Assembly: GCA_902801415.1 (NCBI GenBank)
Contig: CADCIK010000021.1
Coordinates: forward strand, 1 to 42,921
Reading direction: 5' to 3'
DNA from: an uncultured Lachnospiraceae bacterium
Lineage (GTDB): Bacteria; Bacillota; Clostridia; Lachnospirales; Lachnospiraceae
DNA: 42,921 nt
Shown here: positions 11,066-42,921 of the stretch, in pieces
Layout: each line of letters opens with the position of its first letter
Position numbering within the stretch: the stretch's first letter is position 1
Program-made: the position numbers and the translations under genes
The notes under the pieces: model-generated
What the model was told of the DNA's origin: nothing
The model's input: only the letters and a program-made list of their open reading frames with translations
Database searches by the model: none

Positions 11066-11074
11066 TTTCTGCAA

Positions 11075-11176
11075 AAATAGACCTCTGGGGTGGTTTATGG
11101 ACACATGTCCACTAAAATAGACCTCTGGGGTAGTTTGTAGACACATGTCCACTAACTACCCCAGAGGTCTATTTCC
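11075..11176. repeat. Family D palindromic repeat, copy 1
   Basis: Two direct units beginning AATAGACCTCTGGGGTRGTTT, about 40 bp apart (11077 and 11117), are followed by one inverted unit AACTACCCCAGAGGTCTATT. The second and third can pair as a long hairpin around GACACATGTCC. Related copies are at 40612, 41509 and 42721. Confidence 0.85.
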
Positions 11177-11230: not shown

Positions 11231-12700
11231 TTATGCCACTTCGATAGCCGCGTATCTCTCGGAACCGATGATCTTCTCCATCGCCTCGACAGGGTTCAGG
11301 CCGATGCACTGCATCACCTGACGGAACACCGCCGCAGACTGGCCACTCGCCAGCTGCACGCCCGTGCGCCCCTTGTCGGCATGGAAGACATCGTGGCGGC
11401 TCGCCACATTCCAGAAGATGATGTTGGGGATCTGGTAGCCGAACTTTCTGAACTTCTGCGCCATCTTCTCGTAGAAAGTCCAGTTCTTGTTGCCGCAGAA
11501 GTCGATCTCCATATCAGAGATCACGATCAGGGACTTCGGCATCTCTTCTGCAGGCACACGATACCTCACGGCGATTTCCAGCACATGCTTGAAAGCCGCT
11601 TCCAGGTTCGTGTTGTTCGCCCAGTCCTTCATGTCGATGCTTCGCAGCTTCTGAGCCAAAGTATCGCCCTTCAGCACCTGAATCCTGGAAGTCCCGGAGA
11701 AGGACATGAACATGTTGTGGTAAGCGCCGGTGTTCCGCTCCGCGAAGTACACCGCCAGTCCGACAGATGTCGCCAACGGCCTGCCAAACATGGAGCCGGA
11801 CGTGTCCGCAATGACCAGCGCGTTGGTCCCCGCTTCCACATAATCCGGCAGCTGGCGCCACTGGGCCTCCAGCACATCATCTTCCCTGATCCTGCATCCG
11901 TTCCAGTGCATCTCCATCACCTTTTCGATGATGTCGTACGGATACAGCGTCGCGGAGTGCACTGTCTCCTCACCGCGCACCGCCCTCTGCACAAACTCGC
12001 CAAAGCGCTCCTCATCGTGCCTCATGAAGGCATTTCTGTAGATCATCATCGCCCTGGACGGAACTTCCGCATAGCGGATCTCATCCCAACGGCCGGCGGA
12101 CATCAGTGTTTCGACAACGCCGATCTGTCTGCGCATCGCGCGCACCAGTCTCTTGAACTCGTACACAGAGTAGCCCAGCTTCCTCGCTGTCAAAACACCA
12201 ATCTTCCTGGTGTTCTCAGAAGAAGCATCCGCGGTCTTGATCCACTTTGCGAGCAGAGAGATCGCGTTGCCGGCCTCCATGTTCATGCGGTCCTCTTCGA
12301 ACTGCTTCTTCATAGCAGCCCACATCTCATCTTCCAGAGGCGTTCCGATCAGGCAGTACATGTCGTCGTAACGACCGTATACACCGATCAGATCCAGGTT
12401 GGGACGCAGCCCCTCCGGATGGTATTGGGCCATGTACTGCAGGATCGTGCGGAACGTCTGTCTCTCACCAAGGCCGCCGCGCACGTCTCGCGCGTAGAAC
12501 GCGATCCTTGTCGCGAACAGCGGGTCCGCCTTCCAGGCCTCGGAGAAAAGACGGGTGATCCGCTCCTTGTCAGCCGTGCGGAGTGAACCGACGGTCCCAA
12601 AGAAATCCAGTCGGGCATCGCCCGTAGTGTTCAGCGCTACGGCTCCATTTTCAGTTCTTGTAAATGCGGCGTTCAGTCGCGCCGCTTCAGCGAAATGCAT
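11231..12700 (-). CDS. DUF2828 protein: TROVE-like helical domain plus vWA domain (Ro60-like)
   Basis: A 489-residue protein from an ATG 10 bp after AAGGAGG. Residues about 20-285 match the DUF2828 helical part, recognisable by TTGDARLDFFGTVG (25-38), AFYARDVRGGLGERQTF (67-83), YGRYDDMYCL (108-117), VVETLMSAGRWDEIRYAEVPSRAM (195-218) and TLYPYDIIEKVM (251-262). Residues about 290-480 are a vWA domain with an intact MIDAS: DTSGSM (Asp299, Ser301, Ser303), Thr364 in WANNTN and Asp396 in ISDMEID. DUF2828 shares its order of a HEAT/TROVE-like ring region plus vWA with Ro60, which binds misfolded RNA and Y RNAs; RNA binding is inferred, not shown. The 577 bp upstream hold tRNA-like RNAs and no protein gene, which supports an RNA partner. 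The eukaryotic and bacterial family has no settled function. Confidence 0.85.
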   Translation of the reverse strand: MHFAEAARLNAAFTRTENGAVALNTTGDARLDFFGTVGSLRTADKERITRLFSEAWKADPLFATRIAFYARDVRGGLGERQTFRTILQYMAQYHPEGLRPNLDLIGVYGRYDDMYCLIGTPLEDEMWAAMKKQFEEDRMNMEAGNAISLLAKWIKTADASSENTRKIGVLTARKLGYSVYEFKRLVRAMRRQIGVVETLMSAGRWDEIRYAEVPSRAMMIYRNAFMRHDEERFGEFVQRAVRGEETVHSATLYPYDIIEKVMEMHWNGCRIREDDVLEAQWRQLPDYVEAGTNALVIADTSGSMFGRPLATSVGLAVYFAERNTGAYHNMFMSFSGTSRIQVLKGDTLAQKLRSIDMKDWANNTNLEAAFKHVLEIAVRYRVPAEEMPKSLIVISDMEIDFCGNKNWTFYEKMAQKFRKFGYQIPNIIFWNVASRHDVFHADKGRTGVQLASGQSAAVFRQVMQCIGLNPVEAMEKIIGSERYAAIEVA

Positions 12701-12735
12701 AGTCGTCTTCCTCCTTTCCGCTGTAGTTTATTTCT

Positions 12736-12756
12736 TATCCCGCGGGCACTTCTTTG
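12736..12756 (-). other. Hairpin in the DUF2828 leader
   Basis: A 7-bp perfect stem GCACTTC/GAAGTGC encloses a 7-nt loop, 36-56 bp before the DUF2828 start codon. It sits between the ribosome binding site region and the larger C-bulged stem. Confidence 0.5.
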
Positions 12757-12782
12757 GCCGAAGTGCGTACGCTATTGGCTTC

Positions 12783-12839
12783 GCGTATTGTGCGCTTTAT
12801 CCGGAGCACGAATGCTCCAGGCTTTGCGCACAAGTACGC
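12783..12839 (-). ncRNA. Candidate structured RNA: long stem with one bulged C and a UUCG-capped hairpin
   Basis: On the minus strand GCGTACTTGTGCGC (plus 12839-12826) pairs with GCGCACAATACGC (plus 12795-12783): 13 base pairs with a single unpaired C. Inside lies GGAGCA-TTCG-TGCTCC, a UUCG-capped 6-bp hairpin. The Ro-binding stem of Y RNAs is known for a conserved bulged cytidine near a helix end, so this 57-nt element could be a Y-like stem or a leader of the DUF2828 mRNA. It lies 83 bp before that gene. The fold is plain from sequence; the role is inference. Confidence 0.45.
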
Positions 12840-12870
12840 CTTGGCCGAAGGCCGGCGGGCGTTAAAGTCA

Positions 12871-12947
12871 TGACCCTTTTAATAGCGGATTCGAACCACT
12901 TACCAGATTAACAGTCTGCCTTACCAATGGTATTGCTGTAAGGGTCA
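12871..12947 (-). ncRNA. tRNA-like RNA 2, with an Asn(GTT)-type anticodon arm
   Basis: Seventy-seven nt bounded by an 8-bp terminal stem TGACCCTT/AAGGGTCA. Inside are a canonical anticodon arm CAGA-CTGTTAA-TCTG (anticodon GTT in a standard 7-nt loop) and a canonical T arm AGTGG-TTCGAAT-CCGCT. The D region holds TTGGTA but no normal D stem, the variable loop is only about 2-3 nt, and five extra bases (ATTAA) separate the T stem from the terminal stem. It is therefore unlikely to be a normal tRNA; a degenerate tRNA-Asn or a tRNA mimic fits better. No CCA is encoded. Confidence 0.55.
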
Positions 12948-12981
12948 CATATTCAGGATGCTGTTTCGTAACGGGATGTGT

Positions 12982-13081
12982 TCGATCTATTATTGCTGTG
13001 AGCATCCCTTTGAGATATTGCAGTGAACACCCATCAGAGGTGTTGCATCCAACATCCATTTGAGGTGTTGCATCGAACATC
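12982..13081 (-). repeat. Four 25-bp tandem repeats between the two tRNA-like RNAs
   Basis: Minus-strand unit GATGTTCGATGCAACACCTC + AAATG at 13081-13057, with variants at 13056-13032 and 13031-13007 and a degenerate fourth at 13006-12982. The period is exactly 25 bp. The first three can form a small TGTT-N6-AACA (or AATA) hairpin each, and differences keep that pairing in the first two. No spacer exists between units, so it is not a CRISPR array. Confidence 0.85.
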
Positions 13082-13088
13082 TCACTAA

Positions 13089-13198
13089 GCCGGCGGGTTG
13101 GACTTGAACCAACAACATCTGTATCCCAACGTGGCTGCTGTTAAAATCCCGAACAGGATTTGTTTTTTCCAGCGCTCTACCATTTGAGCTACCACCGA
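13089..13198 (-). ncRNA. tRNA-like RNA 1 with an extended insert in place of the anticodon arm
   Basis: On the minus strand TCGGTGG, then TA at positions 8-9, D arm GCTC-AAATGGTA-GAGC with the GG pair, then about 60 nt instead of the usual 23, then T arm GTTGG-TTCAAGT-CCAAC and the 3' strand CCGCCGG, which pairs with the 5' strand (7 bp, two G-U). The insert can form GCTG/CAGC enclosing an AAATCC/GGATTT hairpin with a TGTTCG loop. No standard anticodon arm is visible and no CCA follows. D arm, T arm and acceptor are too complete for chance. Bacterial Y RNAs (YrlA) are known tRNA mimics that keep D and T arms while the anticodon position is replaced; here the ends lie at the acceptor instead. 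Confidence 0.65.
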
Positions 13199-13227
13199 CA
13201 TATTCTCAATATCATATTGTTTGATCC

Positions 13228-13264
13228 TGACGCCTGCAGATGCTCCTGCGCCTGCAGGCGTCGG
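13228..13264 (-). terminator. Strong hairpin after the small HTH gene
   Basis: An 11-bp perfect stem GACGCCTGCAG/CTGCAGGCGTC with a 12-nt loop lies 16 bp after the stop at 13278. No T tract follows, so it may be a weak terminator or processing site between the HTH mRNA and tRNA-like RNA 1. Confidence 0.45.
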
Positions 13265-13277
13265 ATAATTTGTGGTT

Positions 13278-13535
13278 TCATACGCACTTGCTCATCACGT
13301 TGTCTACCGCGACAATCTCATCCATGGTGACATCAAACATTGCTGCTAAGATCACCAGGTTGTCGATAGTCGGCATGGATGTGCCGTGGATCCACTTGTA
13401 GATCGCCTGCGGTGTCGCAAAACCAAATACTGCCTGCATATCCTTTACAGACATGCCTGCTTCGATTCGTAAGTGGTCAATGTTTTGACCTGTTGCGACT
13501 GTGTTGATGTAAGGAATGCCCCTCATGCCCATCAT
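13278..13535 (-). CDS. Small XRE-like helix-turn-helix protein
   Basis: An 85-residue protein from an ATG 6 bp after AGGAGG. Residues about 16-75 form one HTH (GQNIDHLRIEAGMSVKDMQ, recognition part TPQAIYKWIHGTSMPTIDNL). It lacks a second domain, so it is probably a DNA-binding regulator or an autorepressor. It sits directly upstream of the tRNA-like RNAs and DUF2828, in the same direction, so it may control that locus; this is inferred from position. Confidence 0.82.
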   Translation of the reverse strand: MMGMRGIPYINTVATGQNIDHLRIEAGMSVKDMQAVFGFATPQAIYKWIHGTSMPTIDNLVILAAMFDVTMDEIVAVDNVMSKCV

Positions 13536-24991: not shown

Positions 24992-26102
24992 TCAGGCTTC
25001 TGTACGTCGTTCCGCTGAGCCGGTCGTGCGGCATCGGAATCGCCTCTTTTCTGAACACCTCCAAAATGAAATACGCAACAAAGTACAATCTGGACAAAGC
25101 AAGCAGCCCAATAATGACGAAACTATTGACAAACTCGAACCGGCCAGTCGCAATCAGGTTCGCGATGATGAGCGGCAGCTCTGTGAACAGCCACAAGAAC
25201 AGATAGCGCCTCACAATCTGCCCCGCCGAGGCCCGCTTTCCCTTCTCCGACACAAGCGTCATCCGGCAGATGCCGTGCCCCATCGTCACGCCTCCTGTCA
25301 GCAACGCCAGCACCATAGAATAGAGACAGAAAAATGTCCAGTTATAGATCTCGCCATTGGTAAACACGGCATAGAAATCCGGTGTCAAAACAGCGATCGC
25401 CCCGCACAAGATTGTATATAAAGTCGAGCTGCATAAATAGTCAAAAGCGACCGCCCACATTCTTCGAGGTCCGGAAACCCTCTTGCCATCCGTTATCGCA
25501 ATCTCGTCGATCTCGTCGCGGCTCGGCAGGATCACCATAAACACATACGCGATCTGATAGCCGACCACGCCTCCAAGCGTGTTGCAGATCAGGTCCTCCA
25601 CGTCCGCCAGCCTGTAGGGTCCGGGATAAAGCCCGAACAAAGCCGACAGCTGGCTCCCCTCATAAAAGAGACTGAGCAGAAACGAAAACAGGATCGTGCG
25701 CAGCAGGCTCTGCTTGAAATAATAGCGAAGATAGACGCCAAAAGGCACCGTAAGAAGAATGTTGAAGAGCAGCTGCCACAGAGACATGCTCTGCGCATAT
25801 GCCGCAAGCGTTTCAAAGTTCAAGGGCCTGTTCCGCCAATACAGCCAGATTTGCCGGAACGGGATCAGGTTCAGGTGATCCTGCCACCTGTTGCCCACTG
25901 TCGATTCCCAGTCCGGCAAGGGCAGACACACCATGAAAAAGGCGATCAGCATGTAGAGGATAAAGCTGTAGATGATCAGGGTCCTGAGTTTTGACACTGA
26001 ACCGTACTTGTTGTACTGGTACAGCGCGTACGGCAGCGTGAAAACTGCCGCGATCAGAGGAAAAATCAAAAGTCCCCAGTAGATGTTGTCAAGATATACC
26101 AT
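24987..26102 (-). CDS. VanZ-RDD fusion membrane protein
   Basis: A 371-residue protein. Residues about 1-190 match VanZ (about five membrane helices; NLIPFRQIW, LFNILLTVPFGVYLRY, FYEGSQL and ADVEDLICNTLGGVVGYQIAY). Residues about 205-355 match an RDD domain (RRMWAVAFDYLCSSTL with the Arg-Asp pair, then GMTLV-like GHGICRMTLVSEKGKRAS and three helices). VanZ proteins are linked to glycopeptide or lipoglycopeptide tolerance; RDD is a membrane domain of unknown transport role. The fusion is seen in Firmicutes. GAGGAGAA lies just before the ATG. Confidence 0.9.
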   Translation of the reverse strand: MVYLDNIYWGLLIFPLIAAVFTLPYALYQYNKYGSVSKLRTLIIYSFILYMLIAFFMVCLPLPDWESTVGNRWQDHLNLIPFRQIWLYWRNRPLNFETLAAYAQSMSLWQLLFNILLTVPFGVYLRYYFKQSLLRTILFSFLLSLFYEGSQLSALFGLYPGPYRLADVEDLICNTLGGVVGYQIAYVFMVILPSRDEIDEIAITDGKRVSGPRRMWAVAFDYLCSSTLYTILCGAIAVLTPDFYAVFTNGEIYNWTFFCLYSMVLALLTGGVTMGHGICRMTLVSEKGKRASAGQIVRRYLFLWLFTELPLIIANLIATGRFEFVNSFVIIGLLALSRLYFVAYFILEVFRKEAIPMPHDRLSGTTYRSLS

Positions 26103-40611: not shown

Positions 40612-40840
40612 GCGAAGCGACCTCTGGGGTAGTTTGTCGCTACCTCTTGCGAAGTGACCTCTGTTGCGAAGTGACCTCTGGGGTAGTTTGTCGACAGATG
40701 ATGGTGCGAAGTGACCTCTGGGGTAGTTTGTCGACAGATGATGATTATTCCACGCCCGGGAACAAACCACCCCAGAGGTCGTTTCTCCCAGAGGTCGTTT
40801 CTCCACACCTGGAACAAACTACCCCAGAGGTCGTTTTTCC
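40612..40840. repeat. Facing array D2: direct and inverted GACCTCTGGGG units
   Basis: The gap 40562-40937 has no gene. Direct units GCGAAGTGACCTCTGGGGTA occur at about 40612, 40670 and 40708, with a short one at 40653. Inverted units AACAAACYACCCCAGAGGTC end at about 40790 and 40832, with a truncated CCCAGAGGTCGTTTCTCC between. This is the same facing layout as arrays E and F and lies between divergent genes. Confidence 0.85.
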
Positions 40841-41508: not shown

Positions 41509-41645
41509 ACCTCTGAGGGGGCTCTGGACCTCTGGGGTAGTTTGTCGACACTTGTCCACAAACCACCCCAGAGGTCAATCAGCTCTCGACACTTGTCCAC
41601 AAACTACCCCAGAGGTCGATCAGCTCCCCCAGAGGTCAATCAGCT
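41509..41645. repeat. Family D palindromic repeats, copy 3
   Basis: GACCTCTGGGGTAGTTTGT pairs with ACAAACCACCCCAGAGGTC around GTCGACACTTGTCC, followed by another inverted unit and a partial one. It lies between convergent genes, so it could end both. The last AGCTGATTGACC part overlaps the stop codon of the serine hydrolase gene. Confidence 0.88.
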
Positions 41646-42632
41646 CAAAATCACAGGCAATATTCTCTGCTCTATGAATTCAACTCTGTCAAATATCCTT
41701 GGTTTGAACGTACCCGTGATTCCAACCGCTACATTATCCTCTTTTTTGACATAGATGATATTGCCGCTGTCGCCGATCGCCGCGTAGACTTCTCTGTCAT
41801 CAAAGGGTTTGTACCACAAGTATCCGTAATTCATGTTCCCGAACCTCTCACCGAGCTTAAGATGCGGCTTAGTCATATCTTTAAGGTATTCTTCGGAGAT
41901 GATCCTTCTGCCATTGAACACGCCCTCGTTGAGCACAAGCGTTCCGATCACCGCCATATCTCGCGCCGACATACACAACCCCCACCCGGCCGTAACTGTG
42001 CCCTGAGGATCTGTATACCACTCATATTTCCTCGGATTCTTGTTCATGAAGAAATCAAACTGATCTTCTTTGGAGCTGTCTCCATGCGGAACACGCTTGG
42101 GAAGTCCAAGCGGCTCGAACAGATTCTTGTTGGCAAAATCAATGCATTTCTCCCCTGTTGCCCTCTCAATAATGCCGATCAGAATCTGAATTCCAAGCGT
42201 TGCATATTTGAACTCACCGGTGATCCCCTTGCGTCCTCCAAGATAATCAAGCACCGCAAGCGTCCAGTCTTCGGAAGTGCACACCTTCTTCCAGGGTTCC
42301 GACTTCCCTTTATATGGAGCCGTCATCGTCAGCAGATGCCTGATCGTAACCTCGTAGATCGTTTTCTCTCCGCGCTTAACAGCGTAATCCGGAAAGAACT
42401 CCATCACTTTCTGGTCAACGCTCTTAATACATCCTTTGTCCAGCGCAATTCCTGCAAGCAAAGCTGCCACACCTTTGGTCACGGAATTAACATTCATCGC
42501 ATCCTCAGTTGTGAATCCATTCCAAAAGTCATCATAAACCGTTACGCCGTCTTTGATCGCATAGATCTGGCAGATGTTGCTTTCGTTTCCGGTGCTGTCA
42601 GAAATATATCTGTGCAGTTCTTCTTCATTCAC
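41640..42632 (-). CDS. Serine hydrolase, class C beta-lactamase/penicillin-binding family
   Basis: A 330-residue protein. The SxxK motif is SVTK (Ser50, Lys53) and the second motif is YAT (Tyr143) in place of the usual YxN. The third motif region reads AAIGDSGNIIYV, not the usual HxG or KTG. There is no signal peptide or lipobox, so it would be cytoplasmic or exported otherwise. Family members are esterases, peptidases or peptidoglycan enzymes; true beta-lactamase activity is not implied. AGGAGG lies 8-9 bp before the ATG. Its stop codon lies in a family D repeat. Confidence 0.88.
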   Translation of the reverse strand: MNEEELHRYISDSTGNESNICQIYAIKDGVTVYDDFWNGFTTEDAMNVNSVTKGVAALLAGIALDKGCIKSVDQKVMEFFPDYAVKRGEKTIYEVTIRHLLTMTAPYKGKSEPWKKVCTSEDWTLAVLDYLGGRKGITGEFKYATLGIQILIGIIERATGEKCIDFANKNLFEPLGLPKRVPHGDSSKEDQFDFFMNKNPRKYEWYTDPQGTVTAGWGLCMSARDMAVIGTLVLNEGVFNGRRIISEEYLKDMTKPHLKLGERFGNMNYGYLWYKPFDDREVYAAIGDSGNIIYVKKEDNVAVGITGTFKPRIFDRVEFIEQRILPVILS

Positions 42633-42720: not shown

Positions 42721-42815
42721 AAGACCTCTGGGGGGTGCCAATGACCTCTGGGGTAGTTTGTCCCCACATGTCCACAAATCACCCCAGAGGTCGTTTGTTC
42801 AGAGGTCATTTGTTC
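42721..42815. repeat. Family D palindromic repeat, copy 4
   Basis: A partial GACCTCTGGGG, a full ATGACCTCTGGGGTAGTTTG unit, an inverted CAAATCACCCCAGAGGTCGT and a partial inverted unit. It lies about 90 bp upstream of the serine hydrolase start. Nothing else is seen up to the window edge. Confidence 0.85.
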
Positions 42816-42921
42816 AACTTGCCAAATCATGATTTATCGGAATCTTTTACAAATACGAATCTGTTGATCAGATTTCGACAAAAGACGTGATTTCCTGCTC
42901 TAAAAGACGGAATACGTTTGC

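Follow-up and report, generated by a model that had tools for sequence, protein, structure and literature searches.

Proteins of the Ro60/Rsr type, in which a TROVE domain is joined to a von Willebrand factor A (vWA) domain, bind Y RNAs that are encoded alongside them. In these proteins the Y RNA lies on the surface and misfolded RNA occupies the cavity. Bacterial Y RNAs known as YrlA mimic tRNA, are encoded near the Ro gene and connect the Ro protein with a nuclease, for instance PNPase. To our knowledge, the role of Ro60 and Y RNAs in bacteria is so far little known. Here we describe a locus in 42,921 nucleotides of DNA from an uncultured Lachnospiraceae bacterium (contig CADCIK010000021.1, positions 1 to 42,921; this whole stretch is called the window), in which a gene of the DUF2828 family is preceded by three predicted small RNAs that share one module, namely a helix, two bases and the motif ACAGCA. 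In our judgement this locus very probably encodes a Ro60-type ribonucleoprotein, in which the DUF2828 protein would bind the module RNAs by a portable handle and the RNAs would have a Y RNA-like role.

The module RNAs resemble YrlA as small RNAs that lie, by position, near a gene which is here Ro-like, and that in part carry a tRNA-like domain. They differ from YrlA in their handle of helix and ACAGCA, which either replaces the acceptor stem or is permuted inside the tRNA body. A Ro-like protein with tRNA-like RNAs is also found in the Salmonella RNA-repair operon rsr-yrlBA-rtcBA (PMC7790460), and RNA ligases lie close to some phage DUF2828 genes (see below); in contrast to this operon, RtcB in the window's genome is not adjacent and is encoded on another contig. 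Among phage proteins, LeBron gp53 is a DUF2828 homologue (37% identity) already annotated as 'Ro-like RNA binding protein', and the Ro60 of Thermus phage phiLo (9l5y) shares its fold with the DUF2828 protein. In the excerpts of the literature searched, no RNA partner of the DUF2828 type was found for Ro proteins like these two, and the titles and abstract openings of the papers found to name DUF2828 make no mention of RNA partners. Y RNAs have been reported in phages, according to two articles (PMC12282133; PMC7765460) that refer to Chen 2014 and to Sim and Wolin 2018, and the RNA class would be partly known if the phage Y RNAs of these earlier studies include module RNAs.

A Ro60-like protein and three predicted small RNAs

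The DUF2828/DUF7788 gene (11231-12700, minus strand) encodes 489 amino acids with Pfam matches to DUF2828 (3.4e-43) and DUF7788 (3.1e-35); the other match up to E 1 is a weak one to VWA_2. Ro60/Rsr proteins have a TROVE match, whereas the Pfam search gave none between the window protein and PF05731 at E≤1, and a profile of A2 gave E values of only 0.84-0.86 with solved TROVE chains. Comparison of models shows a Ro60-like fold for the predicted structure, with a TROVE-type helical part joined to a vWA domain; in the VIA-align comparison, the inspected rows beneath the Ro60 entries, among the 50 entries listed, were vWA domains with a metal ion-dependent adhesion site (MIDAS). Residues D299, S301, S303, T364 and D396, which we take to be this site in the vWA domain, are invariant in 35/35 aligned sequences. 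A helical TROVE-like part and an intact vWA MIDAS had been noted for this gene in an earlier, sequence-only reading of the locus, and both are borne out by the fold comparison and the invariant residues. The protein may form a closed ring.

Upstream of the gene, 577 nt (12701-13277) hold only mechanical open reading frames, such as one of 70 amino acids at 12868-13080 (these frames were not run against Pfam), in agreement with the earlier statement that this stretch is free of protein genes. Three predicted RNAs lie here on the minus strand. RNA-A (13089-13198) has a tRNA body with acceptor stem, D-arm and T-arm, supported by the Rfam tRNA model, by ARAGORN with introns allowed and by a consensus fold, and carries in its anticodon region a permuted module (13136-13161), in which the 3' helix strand, a short loop and the 5' helix strand are followed by two bases and ACAGCA. 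Its tRNA score of 38.7 bits was obtained with permissive filters only, and neither the fast Rfam scan of the whole window nor default ARAGORN reported it. RNA-B (12866-12949) consists of the helix GTGACCC/GGGTCAT in the place of the acceptor stem, ACAGCAA, an anticodon-like arm (12904-12918) and a T-arm (12885-12899); Rfam gave nothing above chance for it, and it recurs in relatives. RNA-C (12951-13009) comprises the helix GGGATGC/GCATCCT, which closes a short loop, and ACAGCAA. Both RNA-B and RNA-C score 37.1 bits with our covariance model R1, of which they are training members. Two tRNA-like RNAs had thus been recognised correctly, RNA-A by its Rfam score and RNA-B by its acceptor-like helix and arms; RNA-C and the module common to all three had been overlooked.

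The module across bacterial and phage loci

DUF2828 loci were gathered from genome contigs (44), viral contigs (20) and phages (22). Thirty of 299 family genomes and 7 of 398 phylum genomes supplied further loci, with the window's own genome included in both sets. The upstream set comprises 94 stretches of at least 300 nt from window, genome and viral loci, with nine duplicate loci and those lacking a usable start excluded; many of its loci are kin to one another. The commonest 7-mer in this set is ACAGCAA, present upstream in 85 stretches, on the opposite strand in 4 and downstream in 17 (where downstream sequence was sampled). Each copy sits two bases past one helix strand, and the partner strand follows 14-121 nt further on. 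A strict finder demanding seven contiguous pairs in the module helix gave 226 sense versus 16 antisense matches over 910,357 bp, not all of which were inspected by eye, and their density was 1.62 per kb within 1 kb upstream versus 0.009-0.092 per kb in other zones. This upstream kilobase held 148 copies in 93 loci, against 0.2 expected from dinucleotide shuffles. At least one copy was present in 81/93 loci, for which 77/93 is the fairer count, because the sole strict match in four doubtful loci (L004, L006, L008 and L010) is an A/T-rich hairpin resembling a terminator.

The helix itself varies widely, with 91 different stem pairs among 202 non-redundant copies. In a 64-row alignment, 98.4% of cells are paired (66.9% after shuffling) and the covariation score is 0.926 (0.257 shuffled; slid controls at most 0.135), figures which lean toward structure because the finder picked the 3' strand by complementarity. 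Two checks are independent of this selection: a swap with a foreign RNA gave the 5' strand a partner in just 4.4% of cases, and the 3' strand is followed by G in 182/202 copies. Furthermore, two matched patterns retrieved 85 and 22 stretches from a viral collection, and a mispaired pattern none. A chance origin of the module is rejected by the shuffles, the antisense strand, the swaps and the mispaired pattern. A variant was noticed in Pseudomonas phage Astolliot (L125, 8475-9009), where four module RNAs, in which ACAGCAC or a similar sequence replaces ACAGCAA, sit amid tRNA genes downstream of the DUF2828 gene.

The module occurs in two topologies. In the terminal form, exemplified by RNA-B, its helix stands where a tRNA has the acceptor stem; in the permuted form, as in RNA-A, it lies inside a tRNA body. 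Terminal RNAs are found in at least one member of 31/38 protein clusters at 70% identity and of 10/12 at 50%. The permuted form is present within 1 kb upstream in 33/94 loci and either form in 86/94, the four doubtful loci included, and 53/94 loci have several copies. Among 87 distinct terminal-stem RNAs with a loop of at least 55 nt, 46 have a T-loop and 39 a T-loop plus an anticodon-like arm, against a T-loop in 0.4% of shuffled loops. The permuted form with a T-loop gave 46 sense versus 0 antisense matches; without the demand for a T-loop this finder is loose (58 versus 22). RNAalifold, applied to 27 of 37 aligned tRNA-fusion RNAs, returned a fold with the acceptor stem, the module hairpin and the T-arm, in which 16/19 pairs show compensatory changes. 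The outer-helix letters of permuted and terminal RNAs of the same locus agreed in 23/39 cases against a shuffled mean of 19.5 and maximum of 25, which is not significant.

Protein and RNA also occur together in genome-wide searches. At E≤0.01, R1 matched 24/299 family genomes, 20 of them among the 30 with DUF2828, and all 13 family genomes matched at E≤1e-4 encode DUF2828. Half of those 20 (10) contributed no locus to R1, although close relatives of some did; the match lies near the gene in 18/20 and on another contig in G092 and G122. The window's own genome has only two matches, both of them window RNAs, and 5/6 phylum genomes with DUF2828 are matched, three of which contributed to R1. The covariance search over collected loci that had been proposed as a check showed that the RNAs recur, in 29/39 genome loci (E≤0.01) and in 26/34 loci of a separate further set (E≤0.1), with a model trained partly on the loci tested. 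In each of three sets of matches, R1 hits lie on the gene's strand without exception (54/54, 48/48 and 56/56). Conversely, 64/107 viral stretches found by the RNA pattern alone contain a DUF2828 gene, and 71/72 of their RNAs are on its strand (the sole opposite one is in L200) and 52/72 within 1.5 kb. For the remaining 43 stretches (42 records), a Pfam search found DUF2828 elsewhere in 27 records; therefore 91/107 stretches come from DUF2828-bearing records, some stretches sharing one record. For comparison, 666/50,697 phage records of a different collection have a homologue of the window protein. Ten phages in which R1 copies near the gene were none, weak, distant or untested were searched throughout: seven have a match at E≤0.01, and in Salmonella phage 7t3, Serratia phage BF, Aeromonas phage phiWae14 and Synechococcus phage BUCT-ZZ01 every match (E 1e-7 to 0.005) is about 9 kb or more distant from the gene. 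In a small control, T4, SPO1, phiKZ and RaK2 contain neither module RNA nor DUF2828 gene.

Several results weigh against this association. Neither RNA form was found within 1 kb in 8/94 loci, or 12/94 if the four terminator-like ones are added, a result that counts partly against the earlier proposal, for which homologues in relatives without any nearby tRNA-like RNA had been named as a refutation; 18/73 genome loci in all are R1-negative, and the whole genomes of phages KVP40, Synechococcus B23 and Vibrio F86 lack a match at E≤0.01. The circular element in R1 bears on its recovery rates, and at least five contigs from the second viral pattern were already within L090-L109. Four genomes without DUF2828 (G135, G145, G192 and G246) have weak R1 matches (E 7.7e-4 to 0.0075), a number about equal to the chance expectation at that threshold. 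The window stretch yielded no promoter-like site. Finally, abundant phage RNAs already published near Ro-like genes were considered as expressed module RNAs and rejected, as they are not module RNAs.

These published cases come from two phages. For Listeria phage CKA15, the published study (PMC12282133) reports the homologue CKA15_055 in purified phage particles and far higher transcription of CKA15_059 and 060 than of any other locus, and suggests that the abundant RNAs close to the Ro-like gene 055 are Y RNAs. CKA15_059-061, at OR088597 26388-26698 (L247, 2889-3199), precede the DUF2828 gene by about 1.2-1.5 kb and have no R1 match; three module RNAs lie elsewhere, at 25286-25553. For Campylobacter phage NCTC 12673, a 158-nt non-coding RNA is given as the most densely transcribed feature in PMC6024767. 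It lies at NC_015464 7110-7267 (L270, 1611-1768), 13 nt from gp012, and contains neither ACAGCA nor an R1 match; gp012 is short and matches only residues 25-243 of a DUF2828 protein, the helical half. The two are possibly another Ro-like protein/RNA pair.

In phages, the DUF2828-RNA pair often lies within tRNA arrays and sometimes near RNA ligases. Annotated RNA ligase genes are present within 5 kb of the DUF2828 gene in 4/22 phage loci, three of the 22 being without any annotation: Salmonella 7t3, Serratia BF, Aeromonas LAh_6 and Listeria List-36, the last additionally with a tRNA splicing ligase. A published list of genes that are toxic when overexpressed includes LeBron gp53 (PMC13148394).

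Neighbouring features and rival explanations

Further features surround the RNAs. A small gene at 13278-13535 (minus strand; Pfam HTH_3, 5.7e-9) confirms the helix-turn-helix (HTH) gene of the sequence-only reading. Homologues occur in 17 loci overall, twice on the downstream side of the DUF2828 gene, and among loci with at least 1.2 kb upstream in 14/39 genome and 1/19 viral loci. Its protein is a possible local regulator and no fixed part of the system; of the earlier proposal, the Ro60-like fold and the regular association of DUF2828 with small RNAs that often resemble tRNA are supported, and the HTH gene as a general component is not. The bulged stem and the tandem repeat noted before are also present, likewise without support as general components. 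The stem is a strong bulged hairpin between HTH gene and RNA-A (13210-13272, minus strand; folding z -7.1), and the repeat, with a 25-bp unit, lies between RNA-A and RNA-C (13003-13081, no strand assigned; repeat search). By eye, its units resemble decayed 5' halves of the module (helix strand, two bases, ACAGCAA-like), as if it stemmed from partial duplication of an RNA. Between RNA-B and the DUF2828 gene, 12730-12866 form a long imperfect palindrome (-65 kcal/mol, z -6.6), which may be an inserted repeat element, because the corresponding gap in the relative L012 is far shorter (44 nt). A core like CCTCTGGGG, or its complement, is shared by repeats at 11074-11155, 40642-40804, 41545-41646 and 42785-42816 of the window.

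The shared fold, the place beside the gene, the tRNA mimicry and the Y RNAs reported in phages (PMC12282133; PMC7765460) would all suit diverged YrlA-type Y RNAs of the canonical Ro60/Rsr system. We nevertheless consider this unlikely, as the protein lacks the PF05731 match, R1 found nothing in nine genomes with canonical TROVE (0/9) or at nine TROVE loci (0/9), and the only Rfam families to attain their gathering scores in 16 loci were tRNA and tmRNA (with no check that Rfam includes a YrlA model). The well-preserved acceptor and T-arm, together with an RtcB encoded on another contig of the same genome, raise the question whether the inserts are introns of real tRNAs, the module being excised, perhaps by a DUF2828 complex, and the halves joined by RtcB. 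ARAGORN with introns allowed reports 136 distinct insert-bearing tRNAs in the loci, of which 60 pass and 76 fail a looser module test, some as near misses. Once the module is removed, a canonical anticodon arm of 5 bp and 7 nt remains in up to 4/37 tRNA-fusion RNAs (L035, with a 4-bp arm, is not counted by this test), against 80/100 plain phage tRNAs. Because only 4/37 retain it, these RNAs look like mimics rather than tRNAs with a removable module. Terminal-stem RNAs, moreover, cannot be such introns, and the permuted module retains the helix and base pattern of the terminal form; the intron explanation is very unlikely, its variant with a larger intron beginning inside the anticodon loop being beyond the reach of the arm test.

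Since the majority of copies occupy the kilobase upstream of the gene, on its strand, and those of the window are close to it, the RNAs could also be cis-acting leader elements that steer translation or transcription of the DUF2828 gene. A leader would not be expected to contain tRNA bodies or to come in several copies, as in more than half of the loci, nor to follow the gene, as the copies do in mycobacteriophages, Staphylococcus phage CF1 and E. coli phage SUSP2, or to lie far from it, as in other phages; a leader function is therefore quite unlikely. Tandem copies with inverted-repeat arms near an HTH gene might, finally, suggest DNA elements, i.e., operators of the HTH protein or recombination sites. 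The strand uniformity of the R1 matches, the covarying arm sequences, the spacers of 14-121 nt and the lack of an HTH homologue in 25/39 genome loci leave this explanation scarcely credible.

Proposed role of the protein and its RNAs

In the Ro60-type ribonucleoprotein that we favour, the DUF2828 protein would bind small RNAs through the portable handle of a 7-bp helix, two bases and ACAGCA. That the handle is the binding site is suggested because it is common to these RNAs, with helix and motif kept in two permutations. It is joined to tRNA-like bodies as a substitute acceptor stem or permuted within the anticodon region, and we therefore propose that the RNAs work like bacterial Y RNAs. They might gate or orient the ring, and their tRNA disguise could, by analogy with YrlA, bring tRNA-handling enzymes to it; alternatively, the tRNA-like bodies may serve as decoys or sensors for damaged tRNA. 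A part of the phage pair in tRNA repair or quality control during infection is a tentative and rather doubtful suggestion, which would fit its frequent position in tRNA arrays and the RNA ligases found close by in some cases.

That this protein and its RNA tag recur together in many bacteria and phages suggests a hitherto undescribed machine of RNA and protein. We lean slightly toward the broader view that DUF2828 represents a second Ro60-type ribonucleoprotein world, parallel to TROVE and Y RNA and spread over bacteria and many tailed phages, with its own handle-defined RNA family grafted onto tRNAs in both ways, which would yield tRNA decoys or guides that serve in RNA repair, or in defence and counter-defence. 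DUF2828 occurs in bacteria and phages and, judging by its name in the sampled plant literature, in plants too. This family of unknown function thereby gains a fold, a probable RNA partner and a predicted, testable binding site, and the module RNAs form a class that is unmarked in the annotations examined. The pair is carried by phages SUSP2 (E. coli MG1655) and FADO (B. subtilis BEST7003), in which it is open to experiment. If the proposal is true, the use of one protein handle on tRNA bodies in two permutations would clearly exemplify how RNA modules evolve.

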